From positions 1 through 52,571 of the forward strand of contig CALAMQ010000039.1 of the NCBI GenBank assembly GCA_937925815.1: DNA of 52,571 nucleotides, given 5' to 3'. The notes below the pieces were generated by a model. It was not told where the DNA came from. It did no database searches and saw nothing but the letters and a program-made list of their open reading frames with translations. The stretch is from an uncultured Granulosicoccaceae bacterium (GTDB lineage: Bacteria; Pseudomonadota; Gammaproteobacteria; CALCKW01). Below, one piece after another: positions 1,433 through 13,826 of this stretch. Made by a program: the position numbers and the translations under genes. Numbering within the stretch: the first letter of the stretch is position 1; every line of letters starts with the position of its first letter.

Positions 1433-3607
1433 TCAGTAAGGGTCTTTGTAACCAAGAATAGCACGTTCAATTTCACGACCGACGCTGTTGCCAAGCCCAC
1501 CCAAGCCTTTGAAAATCATCTCGACAGAGAAGGCGTTTTGGTAAGTCTCACCATCGCTAAGATAGTGGCGGGCGCCGCCGCGCAGGGCCCAACAGCAGTT
1601 GTCCCACGAGAGGCCGACGAAGCGCTCGATGTTGCGGTCGTCATCGAGTGAGTACTGCCACCGCCCCAGTATGGTCAGATCGTGGCGCACTGCTCTGGCG
1701 AAGGAGATATCCAGCTGTTCAAATCGGCCGTCTTCGAGACGGTGGCCGAGATTGAACAGGTTGGCGCCGCGGCGGAATCGCAGATCTAAGCCACTGCGCT
1801 CCAATTCACCGGTGTCAGGGGAGAGTTGCACTGTCGCGCGTGTCTGCCAGTCTTTGAGCCCACTGTAGACGAGCTCGCCCACGATGTCGGAGCGCGAGCG
1901 CTCGCTGTCCTCAGCTTCAAGTCCGACCTTGCGGTTGTCAAAATAGAAACTGCTGCCGACGCCGTAACGCCAGACCTCGAGTCCCTCGGCATTCAGGTGG
2001 CGGCTGCGCACGGCCAGTGAAAGCTGGTTGGCATCGCCGATTCGGTCGCGCCCGGAAAAGCGGTTATCCCTGAAGAGCTGGTCGAAACTGAAATCGTACA
2101 GTCCGCTGTCAAAAACCGGCAGTGTGTCTTGGTCTTCATAGGGAACGAACAGGTAGAAGGCCCTGGGCTCTAGCGTGTCTGAGCTGCCGTCCGCGTTGTT
2201 GCGCCGCAATTTGAGGCCGGAGTCCAATGACAAGATTGGAACGGTTCGCGCGGGCCGTGTCGACTCCGAGTCATCGGCGTTTTCCAAGCGGTATTTGGTG
2301 TGCGCAAGCGTTGTCGCCGCGCTGAAAAATCCCCAGTGCCGATAATATTCGTAGCGCAAGCGGGGCCGCAAATCGAGGCGCACAGTTTCAACGGACTGGT
2401 CTCGCTCGAGCTTGACCAACTCGCTGTCCAGTGTCAGCGATACCGGGCCGGGTGGATTCCAGAGCGTGCCTCTGACCACGATCTGCGGCAGCCGTCGGTA
2501 GGGTTTGTCCTCTTCGTCAAGGCTGTCGTCGAGGGTCTGGTAGCTCTGCAGCCGAAACAGCGCGTTGATGCTGTTTCGGGTGTAACGAAAATCCACTCTG
2601 CGGTCGGCGTGTGTGACGTTTGCAATAACCGAATTTTCGCTTAGGTCCTCGAGATATTCGTTGTCAGAAATGTCTTCAGCTTGTATTTCCGTGCGCAAGT
2701 TTGGGGTGATTTTCGCGGCTTGCTCAAGCGACACATATTGTCGGATATCTCCGTACTCGCGGTCATTGACCACGTCGTAGTCGATTGTCCAAGACGAGGC
2801 TTTGCCAAGGTAGCGTAATTCGTTGCGAAGTTGCAGGCCGCGTTTACTCATCAAACGCGAGGTTATTGTCGCGTCGAGATTGGGCTTGATGTTCCAATAC
2901 CAAGGCAGATTCAGTTCCAATCCGCGGTTGTCAGAATTGGCAAATTGTGGATAGAGGAAGCCGGTCTTACGCGCGTCACTCAGTGGCCAGCTTATCCAGG
3001 GCAAATACAAGATCGGCACGCCGCCAACCTCAAAGCGCATGTCGGTGGCGGTGCCGACATCGTTCTCTGGGTCGATTTTTATGGTCGAGGCCCGCAGGTC
3101 CCACAGGTGTTCGCCCGGTGGACAGCTGGTCAGACTGGCGCCGCTTAGGTCTAGCCGCTGAGACTCCGAGTAGGCCAGTTGTTCCGCCTCGCCGCGCAGG
3201 TAATTCTCTGTGTTGGGGAGCTCGAACTGTGCACGCTCAACCAGCAGGGAATTGCTGTTTAGCGCGGCATCAAATTTTTCAGCTTGGACATTCAGTCCCG
3301 GCGTTTGGATTTCCGCGCGTCCAGCGCTGCTCACGCGCAGGCTTTGAGTGTCTAACTGGGCTCGGTCAGTCTGCAGCAGTGTGTCGCTGTGGCGCAGTTG
3401 AACGTTGCCCTCAAGCGTGAGCACGCCCTGCGGTTGACCAAAAAGTCTGTCTGCGCTCGCTTCAAAAGGCGCACTTGGGTCTGCTGACAGATTGAGGGCG
3501 GTGCCGAGTTGGTGTGAGCCGGGCACCAGGCATTCTGCTGCGGACACCGCGCCGGAGCTGGTGGCCAGCAAAAACAAACAGATCTGGCGATTCGCGGGCA
3601 GAGGCAT
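1433..3607 (-). CDS. lptD: LPS-assembly protein LptD
   Basis: LptD is the outer-membrane barrel that, with LptE, inserts lipopolysaccharide into the outer leaflet. With ATG 3607 the protein has 724 residues: signal peptide, periplasmic beta-jellyroll (about 45-150), then the barrel. The cysteines used for LptD disulfides are visible: Cys26 just after the signal peptide, Cys162 (SLTSCPPGEHLWDL), and the adjacent pair Cys671-Cys672 (WDNCCWALR) near the C-terminus. The match to the four-cysteine E. coli pattern is close. The start is uncertain. ATG 3637 is also possible, and the open frame reaches 3787, but that would overlap divergent ung. No good ribosome-binding site precedes either ATG. Confidence 0.96.
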   Translation of the reverse strand: MPLPANRQICLFLLATSSGAVSAAECLVPGSHQLGTALNLSADPSAPFEASADRLFGQPQGVLTLEGNVQLRHSDTLLQTDRAQLDTQSLRVSSAGRAEIQTPGLNVQAEKFDAALNSNSLLVERAQFELPNTENYLRGEAEQLAYSESQRLDLSGASLTSCPPGEHLWDLRASTIKIDPENDVGTATDMRFEVGGVPILYLPWISWPLSDARKTGFLYPQFANSDNRGLELNLPWYWNIKPNLDATITSRLMSKRGLQLRNELRYLGKASSWTIDYDVVNDREYGDIRQYVSLEQAAKITPNLRTEIQAEDISDNEYLEDLSENSVIANVTHADRRVDFRYTRNSINALFRLQSYQTLDDSLDEEDKPYRRLPQIVVRGTLWNPPGPVSLTLDSELVKLERDQSVETVRLDLRPRLRYEYYRHWGFFSAATTLAHTKYRLENADDSESTRPARTVPILSLDSGLKLRRNNADGSSDTLEPRAFYLFVPYEDQDTLPVFDSGLYDFSFDQLFRDNRFSGRDRIGDANQLSLAVRSRHLNAEGLEVWRYGVGSSFYFDNRKVGLEAEDSERSRSDIVGELVYSGLKDWQTRATVQLSPDTGELERSGLDLRFRRGANLFNLGHRLEDGRFEQLDISFARAVRHDLTILGRWQYSLDDDRNIERFVGLSWDNCCWALRGGARHYLSDGETYQNAFSVEMIFKGLGGLGNSVGREIERAILGYKDPY

Positions 3608-4531: not shown

Positions 4532-5512
4532 ATGTTCAGCGTCTCCCGTGCCCTGCGCGCGGTGCTTGTGATTGGGGTGGTAACGGGCTGCGGGGGCGCC
4601 CTCGCTGACTACAGCAAACACCCCGATGCGAGGGCTCTCGCTGATCGCGTGTTCGAAGCGCACGGCCTCCCGGTTGCCGACACCCTGGATCTGCTCAATG
4701 GTCTCTCGCGTTATGACGCCGTGATCGAGGCGATGTCCAAACCGGCTGAGAAAACATTGAACTGGGCGGGCTACCGACCCATCTTCCTCAAGCCAGAACG
4801 GGTAGAGCAAGGCGTGGCGTTCTACCGCGAGCACCGTGGCCTGCTTGAACAAGCGGGCGAGCGCTATGGCGTGCCGCCGGCAATCATTGCAGCCATTATT
4901 GGCGTTGAGAGCCGTTACGGACGGTTCAAAGGCAAGCACCCGGCACTGCGGTCACTTGCCACGCTCGCTTTTGATTACCCGCGCCGCAGCCCTTTTTTCA
5001 CCGCTGAACTCGAACACTTCCTGGTGCTGAGCCGCGAAGAAGGCCTCGATCCGCGAGCAGTCAAGGGTTCCTACGCCGCGGCGATGGGGATGCCACAATT
5101 CATATCGTCGAGCTACCGCGCCTACGCGGTCGATGGTGATGGCGATGGCAAACGAGACTTGTTCAATAATTTGCACGATGTCACGCACAGCGTTGCCAAC
5201 TATCTGGCGCGCCACGGCTGGCGCGACGGCGAGCCGGTTGCACGCGAAGTGACGCCCAGTGGGGATGTGATTTCGCTGGTTGAAAAAGGGTACAAGCCCT
5301 CGCTCAAGTCGGCCGAGCTGGCTGCGGTCGGTGTTGCGACAGAGCCTGTACACACCGGGGAATACGCGCTTTTGCGCCTCGAGGGTGATCGCGGCGCGGA
5401 GCACTGGGTTGCCTACCCCAATTTTTATGTGATTACCCGCTACAACCACAGTCCGTTGTACGCGATGGCGGTATTTCAGCTCTCACAAGCTATAAAGAGT
5501 GCACAGAATTAA
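4532..5512 (+). CDS. mltB: Membrane-bound lytic murein transglycosylase B
   Basis: MltB cleaves the MurNAc-GlcNAc bond of peptidoglycan with formation of 1,6-anhydroMurNAc. The 326-residue protein has a lipoprotein signal ending in VVTG-Cys20, so it should be anchored in the outer membrane. The catalytic Glu is Glu126 in IIGVESRYGRFKG. AAAMGMPQFISSSYRAYA and the EF-hand-like DGDGDGKRDLFN (about 201-212) are both typical of the Slt35/MltB family. It is followed by rlpA and dacA, forming a murein-processing group in the order often seen downstream of the rod-shape genes in gammaproteobacteria. Confidence 0.95.
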   Translation: MFSVSRALRAVLVIGVVTGCGGALADYSKHPDARALADRVFEAHGLPVADTLDLLNGLSRYDAVIEAMSKPAEKTLNWAGYRPIFLKPERVEQGVAFYREHRGLLEQAGERYGVPPAIIAAIIGVESRYGRFKGKHPALRSLATLAFDYPRRSPFFTAELEHFLVLSREEGLDPRAVKGSYAAAMGMPQFISSSYRAYAVDGDGDGKRDLFNNLHDVTHSVANYLARHGWRDGEPVAREVTPSGDVISLVEKGYKPSLKSAELAAVGVATEPVHTGEYALLRLEGDRGAEHWVAYPNFYVITRYNHSPLYAMAVFQLSQAIKSAQN

Positions 5513-5585
5513 AAGTGCATGCGTTGCAACGGCCGAGCTCGGCCGGGCGTGTGTACGGGCTTCAACTCAACTTTGGTACAGTTTC

Positions 5586-6659
5586 ATGCGCAATGTGAAA
5601 TCGGTCTCCTCCGTCTTTGTGATGGCAACCATGTTTCTCACGGGCTGCTCTCTGCTGGCGAACGAGAAGGGATTCGACGAACTCGCCGACGGTGCTGGCC
5701 GCATCCTTCAGCCGGCGGATGTGTCCGAGGCGGCACTGTCAAAAGAACCACTTGCCGATTTGGGCAACAAGAGCCCCTATTCGGTCAATGGGCGTTTTTA
5801 CTACGTGATGGAAGACCCAACGCACTACCGAGCGCGCGGTGTTGCCTCCTGGTATGGCAAGCAGTTTCACGGCAACGCTACCTCTAGCGGTGAAGTTTTT
5901 GACATGCATGCACTGACCGCTGCACACCGCAACTTGCCGTTGCCGACCTACCTCGAAGTGACAAACCTCGACAACGGCAAAGTGGCCTACGTCCGCACCA
6001 ACGACCGCGGTCCCTACGTCGATGACCGACTGATTGACCTCTCATACGGTGCAGCCGTGGCGCTTGGCATGGCAGATACCGGCACCGCAAACGTCGAAGT
6101 GCGTGCGGTCACTGGCGATGAAATCGAGCAGGCTAAAGAAGCGGCCTTGGCGAGTGCGGAAGCGGTGCGTGTGGCGGATGGTGTTGTCACTGAAGACACC
6201 GGTGAGAACGGTGATGAGGGTGACACGCTCGCAACTGTGATGGTGGCTGCGACTGGCGAGTCAGCCGAGGATGCAACCGGTGCCGACAACAGCGCCGATG
6301 GCGAGTCCGACAGCGCGTCAGCTGAAACGCCTCAAACTGAAACTGCTGCTCAATCCTCCGCGACGCCGAGCGCGCCCGCGGCAAGCAGCGGGTCTCGGAT
6401 GATTCAAATTGGCGCCTTTGGTCGACGTGCCGCGGCGGACTCAGTGCGTGACACCGCACTCGGTGCGGTGCCGAACGCTGGTGTTCAGGTGCTACAAGCC
6501 AATCGCAACGGCGCATCCTTGTACCGCGTTCGAGTTGGGCCGGTTGAGACTGCCAACATTGACGCGACGCGGGCATCGCTTGCGACGGCGGGATTCAATC
6601 AAGTGGTGGTTCTGCCGGTCAGCGCCGACGGCGGAGATTGTGTGGCGGGCTGCCAGTAA
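5586..6659 (+). CDS. rlpA: Septal-ring lytic transglycosylase RlpA (lipoprotein with SPOR domain)
   Basis: RlpA acts on denuded glycan strands (glycans stripped of stem peptides) at division sites. From ATG 5586 the product has 357 residues. A lipobox, FLTG-Cys21, is followed by a double-psi beta-barrel domain (GVASWYGKQFHGNATSSGE, TNDRGPYVDDRLIDLS), an Ala/Glu/Thr-rich acidic linker of about 100 residues, and a C-terminal SPOR domain (MIQIGAFGRRAAADS to the end) that binds denuded glycan. An open-frame extension upstream to 5499 overlaps mltB and lacks a signal peptide, so it was rejected. Gene order mltB-rlpA-dacA supports the assignment. Confidence 0.94.
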   Translation: MRNVKSVSSVFVMATMFLTGCSLLANEKGFDELADGAGRILQPADVSEAALSKEPLADLGNKSPYSVNGRFYYVMEDPTHYRARGVASWYGKQFHGNATSSGEVFDMHALTAAHRNLPLPTYLEVTNLDNGKVAYVRTNDRGPYVDDRLIDLSYGAAVALGMADTGTANVEVRAVTGDEIEQAKEAALASAEAVRVADGVVTEDTGENGDEGDTLATVMVAATGESAEDATGADNSADGESDSASAETPQTETAAQSSATPSAPAASSGSRMIQIGAFGRRAAADSVRDTALGAVPNAGVQVLQANRNGASLYRVRVGPVETANIDATRASLATAGFNQVVVLPVSADGGDCVAGCQ

Positions 6660-6689
6660 AGTTGTGACAATAGGCAGGCGATTCTGCTT

Positions 6690-6716
6690 CGCGACACCCC
6701 GCGCTGGGGTGTCGCG
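6690..6716 (+). other. Strong stem-loop between rlpA and dacA
   Basis: A perfect inverted repeat has 11-bp arms at 6690-6700 and 6706-6716 around a GCGCT loop. There is no following T-run, so it is not a classic terminator. It may act as an RNA processing or stability element that separates rlpA from dacA within the transcript. Confidence 0.6.
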
Positions 6717-6743
6717 CGATTCTTCAGCACACAGACTGACAAC

Positions 6744-7901
6744 ATGACCAGATCTCTCTTTTTTGGCGCCGCGTTCGCGGCGTTTGGCGGGCTGTTGTTT
6801 GCCCCGATGTCTCATTCGGCAGAGGTGCTCAAGCCCTTGCCTGCAGCGCCCGCATTGTCGGCAAAAGCCTATGTGCTCATGGAATATGAGTCGGGTCGGT
6901 TGTTGGTGGCGCACAATGAAATTCAGCAGTACGAGCCGGCCAGTCTGACCAAGGTCATGACGCACTACATCGTCAGTGATGAAATTCAGAAAGGCTTGTT
7001 GTCTCCCGAACTCGAAGTCACAGTTTCAGAAAAAGCGTGGCGGATGCAGGGCTCAAAAATGTTCATCGAAGTGGGCGACGCTGTGCGCGTCGACCAGCTG
7101 ATCAAAGGCATGGTGATCCAGTCAGGCAACGACGCGACCGTACAACTGGCCGAAGTCATCGCCGGCAGCGAAGACACATTTGCCGATCTAATGAACCAAT
7201 ACGCCACGCATTTGGGCATGCGTGACACGTCGTTTCGCAACGCCACCGGCATGCCCAACGGCGAGCATCTCACCACTGCTCGTGACTTGGCCACGCTCTC
7301 GCAAGCCCTGATACGCGACTTCCCCGAGGCCTACAAGCTGCACTCCGAGCGCGAATTTGAATACAACAACATCAAACAGAAAAACCGCAATGAACTGCTG
7401 TGGCGCGATGAGTCGGTAGACGGTTTGAAAACCGGTCACACCAATGCCGCGGGCTACGGTTTGATCGCGTCGGCTGAACGCGATGGCATGCGGTTGATCT
7501 CGGTAGTTATGGGCGCCGACAGTGCCCAGAGCCGTATCAGTGAAACCGCCAAATTGTTGAACTACGGCTTTCGCTTTTTTGAGACCAAGCGCTTGTTCAA
7601 AGCCGAAGAGGCGATGGACGAAGTGCGGGTGTGGAAGGGCGCGGCGCGCACTGTGCCGGTCGGCATGCTTGAGGAGCTGACCGTCGCCATCCCGCGTGGC
7701 CACGGCGACCAACTGGAAAGCAATCTCGAGCTGCGACGTGCGCTCGAAGCCCCGGTTGCCAAAGGTGACGAGCTCGGCGTGCTGGTGGTGCTCTCCGGAG
7801 GCGAGGTGCTGGTGGAACAGCCGGTTGTCGCGCTGGAAGATGTCGAGCGCGGCGGTGTTGTCGACATCGCGCGAGACAGTATTTTGCAGGTGTTTGAATA
7901 G
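6744..7901 (+). CDS. dacA: D-alanyl-D-alanine carboxypeptidase (PBP5/6 type)
   Basis: This low-molecular-weight penicillin-binding protein trims the terminal D-Ala from peptidoglycan pentapeptides. Its 385 residues carry a signal peptide (cleavage near SHSA-EV) and the three transpeptidase-fold motifs: S67-L-T-K70, S127-G-N129 and K229-T-G231. The C-terminal domain after about residue 280 and the end of the chain fit PBP5-type anchoring to the inner membrane. It is followed after 11 bases by ybeD and then lipB-lipA, a classical gammaproteobacterial arrangement. The D-Ala it releases is a possible substrate for the D-amino-acid operon at 28-31 kb (inference). Confidence 0.95.
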   Translation: MTRSLFFGAAFAAFGGLLFAPMSHSAEVLKPLPAAPALSAKAYVLMEYESGRLLVAHNEIQQYEPASLTKVMTHYIVSDEIQKGLLSPELEVTVSEKAWRMQGSKMFIEVGDAVRVDQLIKGMVIQSGNDATVQLAEVIAGSEDTFADLMNQYATHLGMRDTSFRNATGMPNGEHLTTARDLATLSQALIRDFPEAYKLHSEREFEYNNIKQKNRNELLWRDESVDGLKTGHTNAAGYGLIASAERDGMRLISVVMGADSAQSRISETAKLLNYGFRFFETKRLFKAEEAMDEVRVWKGAARTVPVGMLEELTVAIPRGHGDQLESNLELRRALEAPVAKGDELGVLVVLSGGEVLVEQPVVALEDVERGGVVDIARDSILQVFE

Positions 7902-7912
7902 CGAGCTCAACG

Positions 7913-8179
7913 ATGCGCCCTGATGACACACTGCTCGAATTTCCGTGTGCCTTTGACGTCAAGGCGATGGGCAAACCCGACGGCGACTTCCGCGCTTTGG
8001 TCGCGTCGTTGGTGGGCGCGCATGTTCCTGAGCTCGGTGACAAAGACGTCTCTGAAAACGCGAGTTCGGGTGGTAAATACGTCGCTGTGACGGTGCGCGT
8101 GCAGGCGCAGAGCCGGGCACAACTCGATGCCATCTACCAGAGCCTGACCGACGAACCGCGCGTGCTGGTGGCGCTCTGA
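7913..8179 (+). CDS. ybeD: YbeD family protein (DUF493)
   Basis: This 88-residue protein matches the DUF493/UPF0250 family: TLLEFPCAFDVKAMG near the start, then SENASSGGKYVAVTVRVQA and LDAIYQSLTDEPRVLVAL at the end. The fold is ACT-like. The family nearly always sits between dacA and lipB, as here, and has been linked by context to lipoate metabolism, but no enzymatic activity is established. It is 4 bases upstream of lipB and almost certainly co-transcribed and translationally coupled with it. Confidence 0.9.
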   Translation: MRPDDTLLEFPCAFDVKAMGKPDGDFRALVASLVGAHVPELGDKDVSENASSGGKYVAVTVRVQAQSRAQLDAIYQSLTDEPRVLVAL

Positions 8180-8183
8180 TACG

Positions 8184-8846
8184 GTGGCCGATGCCACGCA
8201 TTTGATCGTGCGGCAGTTGGGAGAGCTCGATTACACCGTGGCGCAGCGGGCGCAGCGCGCGTTCACCGATGCGCGTCTGCCGGACTCACCCGATGAAGTG
8301 TGGGTGTTGTCGCACCCAGCTGTATTCACGCTCGGGCAAGCGGGTAAACCTGAGCACATCCTCGACGCCGGTGACATCCCCATCGTGCACAGTGATCGAG
8401 GCGGGCAAGTGACTTACCACGGTCCTGGGCAATTGGTTGTTTACACACTGCTTGATCTCAGACGTCATGGATGGGGCGTGCGCGCCTTGGTGACGCGACT
8501 GGAGTCGGCTGTGATAGCCGTGCTGGCTGAGGCCGGCGTGGAGGCCCAGGCGGACCCGAGCGCGCCCGGTGTGTACGTTGACAGCGCTAAAATTGCGGCC
8601 TTGGGGTTGCGGATTCGACGTGGCTGCAGTTACCACGGTCTGGCGTTGAATGTGTCACTTGATTTGCAAGTTTATGAACGCATCAATCCCTGTGGGTACG
8701 CAGGACTCGCCGTGACACGCACCAGTGACCACGGTATGTTGGCTGATGAGCAAGACCTCGCAGAGGCTTTGGTCACCGAGTTGGCGCGAGACCTCGGCGT
8801 CGCCCAGATCGAACGGCGGGATGTCCTGCCGCCGCTGACAAACTGA
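8184..8846 (+). CDS. lipB: Octanoyl-[acyl-carrier-protein]:protein N-octanoyltransferase
   Basis: LipB moves an octanoyl group from acyl-ACP to the lipoyl domains of 2-oxoacid dehydrogenases and the glycine cleavage H protein. The 220-residue sequence shows the family motifs RGGQVTYHGPGQLV (72-85), the catalytic lysine in AKIAALGLRI (Lys136), and the catalytic cysteine in NPCGYAGL (Cys170). The start is GTG at 8184, four bases past the ybeD stop. lipA follows and completes the de novo lipoate route. Confidence 0.96.
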   Translation: MADATHLIVRQLGELDYTVAQRAQRAFTDARLPDSPDEVWVLSHPAVFTLGQAGKPEHILDAGDIPIVHSDRGGQVTYHGPGQLVVYTLLDLRRHGWGVRALVTRLESAVIAVLAEAGVEAQADPSAPGVYVDSAKIAALGLRIRRGCSYHGLALNVSLDLQVYERINPCGYAGLAVTRTSDHGMLADEQDLAEALVTELARDLGVAQIERRDVLPPLTN

Positions 8847-8858
8847 TTGGAACTCGCC

Positions 8859-9890
8859 ATGACAGACGCTAAGCACCGATTTCGCGGTATTCCCATTGTG
8901 CAGGGTGAAACGGTGCGTTCGGGTGAGAAGTACGCAACTGACATCGGCTTCACCGCGATCAAAGACGGCGTCAAACGCGTCGCGGTCGCAGCGCCCACCG
9001 ACGACACCACGCCGCTGCGTAAACCGTCTTGGCTGCGCGCGCGGGTGCCGGGCGGTGGAAAATACAGCGCGGTCAAAGACACCGTGCGCGATCACCGGCT
9101 CGCAACGGTGTGCGAGGAATCCAAATGCCCAAATATCGGCGAGTGCTGGAGCGCGGGCACCGCGACGCTCATGGTCATGGGGGCTGTGTGCACGCGAGCC
9201 TGCCGGTTTTGCAGTGTGGATACCGGCAACCCGCGCGGCTGGCTGGACCCAGAAGAGCCCGCCAACACCGCGCGTTCAGTGCAGCTTATGGGTCTCAAAT
9301 ACGTGGTGATCACGTCGGTTGACCGCGATGACCTCGACGACGGCGGCGCGGGTCACTACGCCGCGTGCGTACAGGCGATCAAAGCCTTGTGTCCGGACAC
9401 GGCAGTCGAAGCATTGACCCCAGACTTCGACGGGCGCACGGAGCTGGTAGAGCAGGTGGTCGACTCAGGTTTGGAGGTCTTCGCGCAAAACGTTGAAACC
9501 GTCGAGCGTCTGACCCACCCGGTGCGCGACCCACGCGCCGGTTACACCCAGACGCTTGATGTGCTCGCCCACGCCAAAGGCTACCGTCCGGACGTGCTGA
9601 CCAAGACCAGCCTGATGCTCGGCCTCGGTGAGACTGATGCTGAGGTACTTGAAACAATGGATGATTTGCGAGAGCGCGCGGTCGATGTGCTCACGCTCGG
9701 TCAGTATTTACGGCCGACTGCCAATCACCTCCCGGTTGAGCGCTATGTCCACCCGGATGAATTCGCCGCCTTGCGTGAGGCCGGTCTGGAGCGCGGTTTC
9801 CGGGAGGTGGTGGCCGGTCCCCTGGTGCGCTCGAGCTACCGCGCTGAGCGGGTTCTAGACGGCAACAATGTTGGCTTGACGACACCCTGA
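8859..9890 (+). CDS. lipA: Lipoyl synthase (radical SAM)
   Basis: LipA inserts two sulfurs into the protein-bound octanoyl chain. With ATG 8859 the protein has 343 residues. The radical-SAM cluster motif CTRACRFC gives Cys111, Cys115 and Cys118. The auxiliary cluster that donates sulfur is the [12 protein letters not shown] motif (Cys85, Cys90, Cys96), with its serine ligand in the C-terminal RSSY. A TTG at 8847 is in frame, but ATG 8859 has a GGA ribosome-binding site at proper spacing. Downstream of lipB in the same operon. Confidence 0.97.
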
Positions 9891-9909
9891 TTCACCTGAG
9901 AGTGCTCGC

Positions 9910-12240
9910 TTGAACCCGATGCCCCCCCTCAACACCGAGCGCCGTGATCGGCCGCCGCGGCACAAGCCGTGGTGGCGCCGTCGGCGCCACTGGCTGCTCG
10001 CATTGGTGTCGGTGTCGGCCATCGGCTTGCTGGTGTTGACCGTGGTCGCGCTCGAGGCGCTGACCGAGATGGACGCACGCATCGTCAAGGTCATGAACGG
10101 CCCGCGCTGGGCCATTCCGGCCCGTGTCTATGGCCGTCCACTGGAACTCTACGTTGGCGCCAAGGTGACACCAACGCTGCTCAAAGAGGAGTTGGGGCGG
10201 CTCGGTTACCGCCTCGACGATGCGATTGGTTCAGGCCGTTTTGATGTTCTCGGTGAACGTTGGATCGTGCAGACGCGTGGTTTTGCTTTTCCGGACGGCG
10301 CCGAGTCGCCGCGCAGGCTGCAACTCGATTGGGACGGCGAGCAACTGCTCGGCATGCAAAACGGCAACGGCGAAGCACTGGATTTGGTGCGACTCGAACC
10401 GCCGCTGATCGGGCGTATTTCACCTGATGAAGCCGAGGACAGGTTGTTGGTCAACTTGGACCAATTACCAGAGGGCTTGATTGAGACCTTGCTCGCAGTG
10501 GAAGACTCGCGTTTTTACGATCACCCGGGTCTCTCAGCGCGGGGGATTGCGCGTGCCATGCTTGCTAATATCAAAGCTGGGCGCTTTGTCGCCGGTGGCA
10601 GCACAATCACTCAGCAGTTGATCAAGAATTTCTTTCTCAGCAGTGAGCGCACACTCAAGCGCAAACTGACTGAGTGGCCGATGGCGCTGTTACTTGAACG
10701 TCGCTACAACAAGGACGAAATTCTTAACGCCTTTGTCAACGAAGTGTACTTTGCACAAGACCGAAGCCGCGCTGTGCACGGATTTGGCCTCGCGAGTTTG
10801 TATTTTTTTGGCATTCCTGTGCAGGAGTTGCAAATACACCAAACGGCTCTGCTGGTCGGATTGCTCAAGGGGCCGAGTTATTTCGACCCCATCCGCAGGC
10901 CTGAGCGCGCCCGCGCCCGTCGCGATGTGGTGCTGAGTGTGATGCTGCGCGACGGCATTATTGATCAACGAAGTTTTGATCGTGCAATCGCGTTACCCGT
11001 GACCGCAGGCTCGCACCGCGACGCTGTCGGTCAGCCGGCCTTTGTCGATCTTGTGCGCAAGCAACTCGCAGAGAATTACGATTTGGCGGATTTGCAACAA
11101 GATGGGTTGAGTGTCTTCACAGGCTTTGATCCGGCTGTGCAGAGTGCACTGGAGACGGCGGCGGAGGCGCGTTTGGCGGTCTTTGACGCAGCGGACCAGG
11201 CGGCGGGCAACGCTGGTGAATCGCTGGAACTGGCGTCGGTGATCACATCGGTTGCCAACGGCGAAGTGCTCGCGTTGCTCGGTGGGCGGGCTGCGCGTTT
11301 TGCCGGCTATAACCGCGCACTGGACGCAACCCGTCAGGTTGGGTCCTTGGTCAAGCCCGCGGTTTACCTCAGCGCTTTGTCTCAACCCGCGCGCTGGCAA
11401 CTGTCGACTCAAATTGAGGATGCGCCAACCGATGTTCTGTTGGCAGATGGATCCGTCTGGTCTCCCGATAATATCAACGGTCAGAGTGCGGGCGACGTCA
11501 GTTTGCTCGAAGCCCTCACGCGTTCCTTGAACCAGGCCACGGTCGCGCTCGGTATGGAGGTTGGGGTCGAAGAGGTTGTGCAAACGCTGCGTCGTCTCGG
11601 GCTCGACCGCGAGGTGCCGCCCTTGCCATCTTTGTTGCTCGGCGCCGTCGAACTCACACCGCTGGAAGTCGCTCAGCTCTATCAAACAGTTGCCTCAGAC
11701 GGTTTCAGTACGCCACTGCGAGCGATACGCTCGGTGGTGTCGCGCTCGGGTGAGGTGTTGCAGCGCTACCCCTTTCGCGTCAAACGCGAGGTGCCCGCAG
11801 AGACCTTGCACTTGCTGCAATACGCGCTCGTCAATGTCATGCGCGAGGGCTCTGGGCGGCGCGCCTACTGGCGTCTGCCGGAGTCTTTGGATTTTGCAGG
11901 GAAAACCGGCACCAGCAACGACTTGCGCGACAGTTGGTTTGCCGGTTTTGGTGGCGACTACCTCGGTGTGGTGTGGCTCGGACGAGATGACAACCTCAGC
12001 ACCGGTTTGACCGGCAGCCGTGGCGCCTTGAGTGTGTGGCGAGACACCTTTGCCGCACTCGGTGATCGAGGATTGCAGTTGACCACCCCGAATTCAGTTG
12101 AGTACCACTGGACAGATCTCAGCAACGGGCGTGCGATCGATGCACAATGCGACGGTGCGCGGTATATTCCCTACGTGCGAGGCAGTGAGCCGCTGCCCGC
12201 CGAGAACACCCGATTCTTTGCCCGGTGCCCGAATCAGTGA
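9910..12240 (+). CDS. mrcB: Bifunctional penicillin-binding protein 1B
   Basis: This class A PBP polymerises glycan strands and cross-links their peptides. Of 776 residues, the first ~27 are basic and cytoplasmic, with a membrane helix near 28-50. A UB2H-like region (about 55-150) is the docking site for activating lipoproteins in E. coli. The GT51 domain follows, with catalytic Glu198 (LLAVEDSRFYDHPG) and GGSTITQQLIKN. The transpeptidase domain has S479-L-V-K, S539-L-N and K665-T-G-T. The TTG start at 9910 has a GAGAG ribosome-binding site 7 bases upstream; ATG 9919 is an alternative. The next gene encodes a TPR lipoprotein likely to be a partner. Confidence 0.95.
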   Translation: MNPMPPLNTERRDRPPRHKPWWRRRRHWLLALVSVSAIGLLVLTVVALEALTEMDARIVKVMNGPRWAIPARVYGRPLELYVGAKVTPTLLKEELGRLGYRLDDAIGSGRFDVLGERWIVQTRGFAFPDGAESPRRLQLDWDGEQLLGMQNGNGEALDLVRLEPPLIGRISPDEAEDRLLVNLDQLPEGLIETLLAVEDSRFYDHPGLSARGIARAMLANIKAGRFVAGGSTITQQLIKNFFLSSERTLKRKLTEWPMALLLERRYNKDEILNAFVNEVYFAQDRSRAVHGFGLASLYFFGIPVQELQIHQTALLVGLLKGPSYFDPIRRPERARARRDVVLSVMLRDGIIDQRSFDRAIALPVTAGSHRDAVGQPAFVDLVRKQLAENYDLADLQQDGLSVFTGFDPAVQSALETAAEARLAVFDAADQAAGNAGESLELASVITSVANGEVLALLGGRAARFAGYNRALDATRQVGSLVKPAVYLSALSQPARWQLSTQIEDAPTDVLLADGSVWSPDNINGQSAGDVSLLEALTRSLNQATVALGMEVGVEEVVQTLRRLGLDREVPPLPSLLLGAVELTPLEVAQLYQTVASDGFSTPLRAIRSVVSRSGEVLQRYPFRVKREVPAETLHLLQYALVNVMREGSGRRAYWRLPESLDFAGKTGTSNDLRDSWFAGFGGDYLGVVWLGRDDNLSTGLTGSRGALSVWRDTFAALGDRGLQLTTPNSVEYHWTDLSNGRAIDAQCDGARYIPYVRGSEPLPAENTRFFARCPNQ

Positions 12241-12275
12241 ATTGCGACAGTCGAGAAACCCAAGTTCGAGTTGTG

Positions 12276-12689
12276 ATGCGGTGCCTGTCAGGTTCCGCAC
12301 TGGTCTTATTGCTGCAAAGCTGCACGCTGCCCTTGGAGTTGCCGAGCCCGCCGCCGTTCCCCGCGCCTGAGACTGTTGTTTTGCCCGAAACTGAAACCCT
12401 GCCTGCACGGCCAGCCACACCCGTTGCCAAGCCTGTAACTGCGGCGGAGTCACTGCGTGCCAGAGCCGTGGTCGCCCAGGAAAACGGGGATTTTGCGCAA
12501 GCCTTGGCGCTGCTTGAACGGGCGCAGCGCATCGCGCCACGCGACGGCGCGATTTACCGTGATATGGCGAGTGCTCACCGCGCCGCCGGTCGTGAAGACC
12601 TCGCTTGCCAATTTGCGCGCAAGGGCTTGTCGGTGCCGGTTGATGCGGACGTCGGCGACGCGCTACTGGCCCAGCTCGACAACTGCTGA
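12276..12689 (+). CDS. TPR lipoprotein, LpoP-like candidate activator of PBP1B
   Basis: This 137-residue protein starts at ATG 12276. It has a signal peptide ending in LLLQS-Cys, an acceptable lipobox with Gln at -2. A Pro/Glu/Thr-rich linker of about 45 residues follows, then a tetratricopeptide-repeat region (ARAVVAQENGDFAQALALLE, RAQRIAPRDGAIYRDMASAH). It lies 35 bases after mrcB on the same strand. In Pseudomonas the PBP1b activator LpoP is a TPR lipoprotein encoded next to the PBP1b gene. Architecture and context match, so an LpoP-like role is inferred; sequence alone does not prove it. An open frame from GTG 12225 would overlap mrcB and push the signal peptide inwards. Confidence 0.8.
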   Translation: MRCLSGSALVLLLQSCTLPLELPSPPPFPAPETVVLPETETLPARPATPVAKPVTAAESLRARAVVAQENGDFAQALALLERAQRIAPRDGAIYRDMASAHRAAGREDLACQFARKGLSVPVDADVGDALLAQLDNC

Positions 12690-12717: not shown

Positions 12718-13182
12718 CTAGCCTTTTTGCTGCAATTGCAGTGCGAGTAGCTTCCTGACCATCTCAATGCGTTGCGCGTTGGCTCCGAGGTCTTTCAGTC
12801 CGAAGCGCGAAGCGCTGCGAATGGCAATTTCATCGGCTTCCCGGCGCCACAACAGCTCGAGGTCATCGCGGTAGTTCATCAAAGGCGTGCGCGCTTCGAA
12901 GTGGACGTGGTCGCCTTCGCGCTTTAGGACCTTGTAGCCCGGCAGTGAGGCTACAGTATCGATAAATTGCTGCCACTGCGTCTCGCTTGCGGCGGGGAAC
13001 GCCAGTGGTTGCACGTCTGCCGCCGCTGAACTCTGGCAGTTGTCTGCGCTGGTGCAGCGAGCGAGATCACCGTCAACAACACCGCCAGCTGCTGAGCGGG
13101 TTGTGAGCAAAGGCACCACCAGCGCGCGCATCAGCGACCAGATAAGCAAAGGTGTGATGAGGAGGATCAGTGCCGTTTTCAT
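12718..13182 (-). CDS. DUF1499 membrane-anchored protein
   Basis: This 154-residue protein has one N-terminal hydrophobic segment (ALILLITPLLIWSLMRALVV), followed by a DUF1499-like domain (QFIDTVASLPGYKVLKREGD, TPLMNYRDDLELLWR, SASRFGLKDLGANAQRIEMV). The function of the family is unknown. The domain should face the periplasm if the N-terminus acts as a signal anchor. Its ATG overlaps the pdxH stop codon (ATGA), so the two are translationally coupled. The pairing with pdxH does not suggest a clear role. Confidence 0.75.
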   Translation of the reverse strand: MKTALILLITPLLIWSLMRALVVPLLTTRSAAGGVVDGDLARCTSADNCQSSAAADVQPLAFPAASETQWQQFIDTVASLPGYKVLKREGDHVHFEARTPLMNYRDDLELLWRREADEIAIRSASRFGLKDLGANAQRIEMVRKLLALQLQQKG

Positions 13183-13826
13183 GGGCTGAGGCGTTCCGTT
13201 GACCAACGCTCTACATCTAGGCTAAATCGAATGCGGTCGTGCAGGCGGCTGGTGCGGCCCTGCCAGAATTCGAACTCACGGGCCTGCAACCTGTAACCAC
13301 CCCAGCGCGCAGGGCGCGCAATGGGGTTATCGGCGTGTTCTGTGGCGAGTGCGTCGACGGCGTCTTCGAGTACCGCTCTGTTGGCGATCACGCGGCTCTG
13401 GTGTGATGCCGCAGCCGAGTGTTGGCTACCGGCTGGCCGCGATGCGAAGTAGGCGTCAGCGTCAGCGTCTGGCAGGCGTTCTACGTTGCCTGCAATACGA
13501 ATTTGGCGGTGCAGCGTCGGCCAGTAAAATAACAGCGCCGCGCGCGGATTGGCCGCAAGTTCCTGGCCCTTTTGGCTCTCGGTGTCGGTGTACCAGCAAA
13601 AGCCGTGGTCGTCGAAATGTTTGAGCAACACCACGCGTGCAGACGGCACACCCTCGGCATCGGCGGTGGCGAGGGTCATGGCGGTGAAATCGTATTGGCC
13701 GTGCGCGTTGGCGTCGTCCAGCCAACGTTCAAACAGCGCGAGCGGTGTACCGGGCAAGTCCACTTCATCCAAACCTACGTTGCCGTAGTCGTTGCGGGTG
13801 TCTCGCTGGTCGCGCAAGTCACTCAT
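13179..13826 (-). CDS. pdxH: Pyridoxamine/pyridoxine 5'-phosphate oxidase
   Basis: PdxH oxidises PNP and PMP to the active cofactor PLP using FMN. The 215-residue sequence from ATG 13826 has the FMN- and substrate-binding motifs RVVLLKHFDDHGFCWYTD, SQKGQELAANPRAALLFYW, the SRPAGSQHSAAASHQS loop, and the C-terminal WGGYRLQAREFEFWQG and RLHDRI. The family ends with a W-x3-RLxP-type motif, seen here as WSTERLSP. An upstream open-frame extension to 13943 lacks homology and would run into the yajQ promoter region. Divergent from yajQ, coupled to the DUF1499 gene. Confidence 0.96.
   Translation of the reverse strand: MSDLRDQRDTRNDYGNVGLDEVDLPGTPLALFERWLDDANAHGQYDFTAMTLATADAEGVPSARVVLLKHFDDHGFCWYTDTESQKGQELAANPRAALLFYWPTLHRQIRIAGNVERLPDADADAYFASRPAGSQHSAAASHQSRVIANRAVLEDAVDALATEHADNPIARPARWGGYRLQAREFEFWQGRTSRLHDRIRFSLDVERWSTERLSP

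Follow-up and report, generated by a model that had tools for sequence, protein, structure and literature searches.

A compact LpoP-type lipoprotein gene adjoining the PBP1B gene of an uncultured Granulosicoccaceae bacterium

The gene at positions 12276-12689 (+) of the window, i.e., the whole stretch of 52,571 nucleotides analyzed here, belongs to the known LpoP family as a new, compact member and does not represent a new system. It most likely (with a probability of about 0.88) encodes the LpoP of this organism, an outer-membrane lipoprotein activating the adjacent PBP1B via the UB2H domain. The sequence of the gene, its gene order, its family membership and its predicted fold are established. 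By analogy with the LpoP proteins of Pseudomonas aeruginosa and Acinetobacter baumannii, on which the proposed localization, binding site and activation are modeled, the protein would leave the cytoplasm, receive its lipid on Cys16 and be delivered to the outer membrane. The disordered linker, rich in proline, would thread through the peptidoglycan mesh, and the five-helix TPR domain would dock by its helix 2-helix 3 edge on the UB2H domain of PBP1B, the product of the preceding gene, and stimulate both glycan polymerization and cross-linking. Features at odds with this assignment are the absence of helix 6, a tyrosine (Tyr94) in place of a tryptophan, and the presence of an LpoB-like gene in the genome. 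PBP1B activators are of interest as they show outer-membrane control over wall synthesis.

The gene, its partner and its family

The open reading frame runs from ATG to TGA and encodes 137 aa. Its length by itself is weak evidence, as 82 out of 2000 shuffles of its bases also gave an uninterrupted frame. Two findings show that the frame is a real gene rather than a product of chance: the protein is also encoded in two further genomes of the same genus (66% and 55% identity), and 59 of the 95 codons that differ from one same-genus relative, over 130 aligned, differ synonymously; dS is saturated, so no dN/dS-type ratio is given. Two upstream GTG starts (12225 and 12237) were dropped, as the ATG at 12276 aligns with the start used in the closest relative and yields a lipoprotein signal of the usual kind.

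The putative partner is encoded by mrcB at 9910-12240 (+). This PBP1B of 776 aa scores 795.7 bits with TIGR02071, against an NCBI curated cut-off of 717.75, and contains the Pfam domains UB2H, Transgly and Transpeptidase. The UB2H domain (PF14814, 60.5 bits), the presumed docking site, lies at 10147-10395 (+). The last base of the PBP1B stop codon is 12240, which leaves a gap of 35 bases (12241-12275) between both genes. A prior reading of this DNA from its sequence alone (hereafter the sequence-only reading) had described a 137-residue TPR protein 35 bases after the PBP1B gene; the coordinates agree, as does Pfam, with TPR_2 (27.2 bits, cut-off 27) and TPR_14 (24.8 bits, cut-off 23.5) both passing their gathering scores.

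Both genes close a series of co-oriented wall genes (4532-12689), in the order SLT_2 lytic transglycosylase (mltB-like), RlpA-like protein, D,D-carboxypeptidase (dacA), DUF493, LipB-like protein, LipA, mrcB and lpoP. A DUF1499 protein gene (12718-13206, minus strand) is convergent with the lpoP-type gene. The genome also encodes LpoA. A second UB2H Pfam match in the genome is located in a helicase-like ORF of 1191 aa (L198, G000 C8:42000-50000), which was read by eye as the transcription-repair helicase Mfd and dropped as another PBP1B; one PBP1B was therefore found. The match of the Pfam UB2H model to an Mfd-like helicase is a trap when PBP1B proteins are counted by UB2H.

LpoP was reportedly first described by Greene et al. 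in 2018. When the single sequence was compared to the PDB, the best natural chain was P. aeruginosa LpoP (6w5q, E 1.3e-5), outranked by four engineered TPR arrays by virtue of their summed repeats. A family profile built from nine members (alignment A1) matched 6w5q along the entire domain in a single stretch (positions 74-174, E 8.6e-30, 107.4 bits); designed TPR arrays outrank 6w5q in this search too, yet their stretches, as far as shown, each score about 32 bits or less. PF13036 (LpoB) has no match in the protein at E-values up to 1. A family search of named public genomes returned four loci, two of which are family members. By profile, structure and gene neighborhood, membership of the LpoP family is well supported, and the LpoP-like architecture proposed from the sequence alone is borne out by the whole-domain match to 6w5q, the lipobox, the disordered linker and the TPR fold. 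Judged by titles and abstract openings, none of the LpoP papers listed concerns this organism.

Gene order across the class and the LpoB-like gene

Granulosicoccaceae are a gammaproteobacterial family. Of an initial 37 genomes, including that of the window, 14 contained a match at a threshold of E 0.001. Ten matching loci other than the window are situated directly after a PBP1B gene (L005-L010, L012, L013, L015, and L017). Locus L011 encodes an LpoP-like lipoprotein (1450-2040, minus strand); the flanks fetched around it contain no PBP1B gene.

A class-wide draw comprised 276 genomes that are at least 90% complete, with matches to the LpoP profile in 186 genomes, to PBP1B in 164 and to PF13036 (LpoB) in 59. 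Adjacency was counted by joining the 150 LpoP-profile places and the 150 PBP1B places that were listed. At 124 of these 150 PBP1B places, a family match lies immediately 3' in the same orientation, no more than 1 kb away and in most cases no more than 300 bases. In eleven genomes, PBP1B and a family match are on the lists without being neighbors, and 15 listed PBP1B places lack a listed family match, ten of these genomes containing a weaker one. We fetched 125 loci, i.e., the 124 adjacent pairs and the locus of the same-genus genome G001, and refound both genes on one strand in all of them, a pairing that in 124 loci results from their selection. As a control, the other neighbors in the window were sought within about 1.5 kb of PBP1B: LipA was found in 3/125 loci and LipB, DUF1499, PdxH, and YajQ in 2/125 each. 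The other neighbor genes of the window do not travel with PBP1B, and the gene-neighbor check that the sequence-only reading had called for turned out in favor of the pairing. This class-wide gene order, in which most PBP1B genes of the sample adjoin a family member, is the most useful addition of this study.

A different activator could be at work in this genome. An LpoB-like protein (G000 C25:90770-91192) matches PF13036 with an E-value of 1.7e-30 and might activate PBP1B, either as the sole activator or jointly with the TPR lipoprotein, the latter then having a lesser or different role. Of the 124 genomes with an adjacent LpoP, 33 contain PF13036 as well. We nevertheless consider this improbable. 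The LpoB-like protein remains just under the NCBI LpoB cut-off (104 vs 110.55 bits) and has only 24 residues between its cysteine and the Pfam match, compared to an unstructured part of 54 residues reported for Escherichia coli LpoB (PMC9593243). Its gene is located beside a gene for a 399-aa lipoprotein (L184, G000 C25:86000-96000), and in 10/10 loci examined the LpoB-like gene adjoins another lipoprotein gene similar to this neighbor. In addition, 15 of the 59 genomes with PF13036 in the class-wide draw have no PBP1B match. The short tether and the other partner make the LpoB-like protein a weaker candidate than the TPR lipoprotein, and we judge its gene, without proof, to be a separate module.

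Predicted fold, lipobox and linker

The TPR domain (residues 56-137, 12441-12686, +) was modeled with AlphaFold from a three-sequence alignment. The model contains five helices with a pLDDT of about 97 (residues 56-69, 73-86, 91-103, 107-118, and 124-135). LpoP 6w5q ranks first both in Foldseek (37% identity, all E-values being above 0.001) and in VIA-align (Z 15.2, rmsd 1.2 Å over 84 residues, 32% identity), with other TPR folds within 1 Z of it in the latter. The fold scores of the model are not enough to tell LpoP from other TPR families, and since TPR folds crowd the structural match lists, the fold is taken as supporting evidence only. This likeness among TPR folds would also suit a generic periplasmic TPR adaptor, similar to NlpI, CpoB or PilF/PilW, that follows mrcB by chance. 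Such an adaptor is very unlikely given that the family profile scores the pilus TPR protein 2vq2 at 29.4 bits, far below LpoP, and that adjacency to PBP1B is kept across the class and that to the other neighbors is not.

Over the 125 loci, the domain is most strongly conserved where helix 2 ends and the chain turns into helix 3; here the window protein has the signature ERAQRIAPRD (residues 81-90, 12516-12545, +), aligned to 6w5q. R82 is present in 125/125 loci, E81 in 122/125 and P88 in 117/125. The window protein keeps E81, R82, R85, I86, and P88 of this surface, and has Tyr at position 94 compared to Trp in 115/125. In P. aeruginosa LpoP, the NMR chemical shifts that accompany binding of UB2H cluster in the segment from the end of helix 2 to that of helix 3, a region described as also the most conserved part of that protein (PMC7267771). 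Two coupling tests count against docking on UB2H, with too few sequences (125) to weigh: in paired-sequence coupling, UB2H appears in one of the top 20 pairs vs 3.5 expected, and the partial correlation of tree distances is 0.10 for UB2H, below the values of the glycosyltransferase domain (0.31) and the transpeptidase domain (0.27).

A short C-terminal tail occurs in 27/125 family members, that of the window protein being among the shortest. Domain cysteines are absent in 116/125 members. C111 and C137 occur together in the window, in G001 and in G002 (the latter outside the 125 loci), and G003 from the same genus has only one cysteine, so that the pair is present in three out of four same-genus genomes. 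From this cysteine pattern we would guess that C111 and C137 perhaps form a disulfide. A wider and rather doubtful extrapolation is that LpoP is the usual PBP1B activator of Gammaproteobacteria instead of that of a small subset, that in the genus of the window it has been reduced to a five-helix domain closed by the C111-C137 disulfide, so that activation of PBP1B would depend on disulfide formation in the periplasm, and that the separate LpoB-like module of the genome has lost or never had a role in activation. The short LpoP form could serve as a minimal activator for structural work.

The predicted signal peptide (residues 1-15, 12276-12320, +) ends with LLQS and is followed by Cys16 (12321-12323, +), the predicted lipidation site, forming the lipobox LQSC. 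This cysteine is aligned in 9/9 members of alignment A1, and a crude rule recognized a lipobox in 119/125 family loci, in agreement with the lipoprotein assignment of the sequence-only reading. Four of the six failures look lipobox-like by eye; the other two, L071 and L128, are LpoP-type genes that adjoin PBP1B without a recognizable lipobox, which may reflect an error in sequencing, the use of a different start or a soluble form. Non-lipidated LpoP-type forms may thus exist. The lipobox had been called slightly unusual, but it is not odd for the family, as Gln at position -2 recurs in 8 of the 119 recognized lipoboxes, including that of the window. The residue at +2 is Thr and not Asp. Under the Lol rule, a non-Asp residue at this position fits outer-membrane sorting, and none of the 119 family lipoboxes has Asp at +2. 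The short signal peptide and the Gln at -2 might still hint at cleavage by signal peptidase I and a soluble protein in the periplasm, which is hardly credible considering the aligned cysteine and the widespread lipobox.

The linker (residues 17-55, 12324-12440, +) contains 12 Pro and four Glu in 39 residues; of the Pro/Glu linker proposed earlier, the richness in proline holds, and that in glutamate is only mild. It is predicted to be disordered, with pLDDT block means between 50 and 64 for residues 11-50. The median family linker is 47 residues long (119/125 loci with a recognized lipobox), whereby the automatically obtained extremes of 13 and 228 residues are unreliable. Fully stretched, the window linker would span about 130 Å (39 aa, 3.4 Å per residue), plus the domain. 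It is shorter than the 54-residue unstructured part of E. coli LpoB, a protein that spans about 145 Å (PMC9593243), and than the linker of P. aeruginosa LpoP, given as residues 20-146 (PMC7267771). With a length near the family median, a reach to the UB2H domain of PBP1B, as suggested from the sequence alone, appears plausible. The spread of linker lengths across the family lends itself to an examination of the molecular-ruler idea.

Comparison with known systems

The closest known counterpart is P. aeruginosa LpoP (6w5q), which stimulates its PBP1B and binds the UB2H domain (PMC7267771). Common to both proteins are the lipoprotein nature, a disordered linker, a TPR domain, the motif ERAQRIAPR and a partner PBP1B bearing UB2H. 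The window protein differs in its length (137 vs 259 aa), its linker (39 vs about 127 residues), its helices (five predicted vs six) and the two cysteines in its domain. In A. baumannii, compared here by description, a two-TPR lipoprotein gene likewise adjoins PBP1B; its product was found by this position and 30% identity to LpoP, and stimulates its PBP1B in vitro (PMC7943195). E. coli LpoB works in a similar way, as an outer-membrane lipoprotein docking on UB2H by means of a flexible tether (PMC9593243), but it has a globular fold described as unrelated to the TPR fold of LpoP (PMC7267771), and its domain PF13036 is absent from the window protein.
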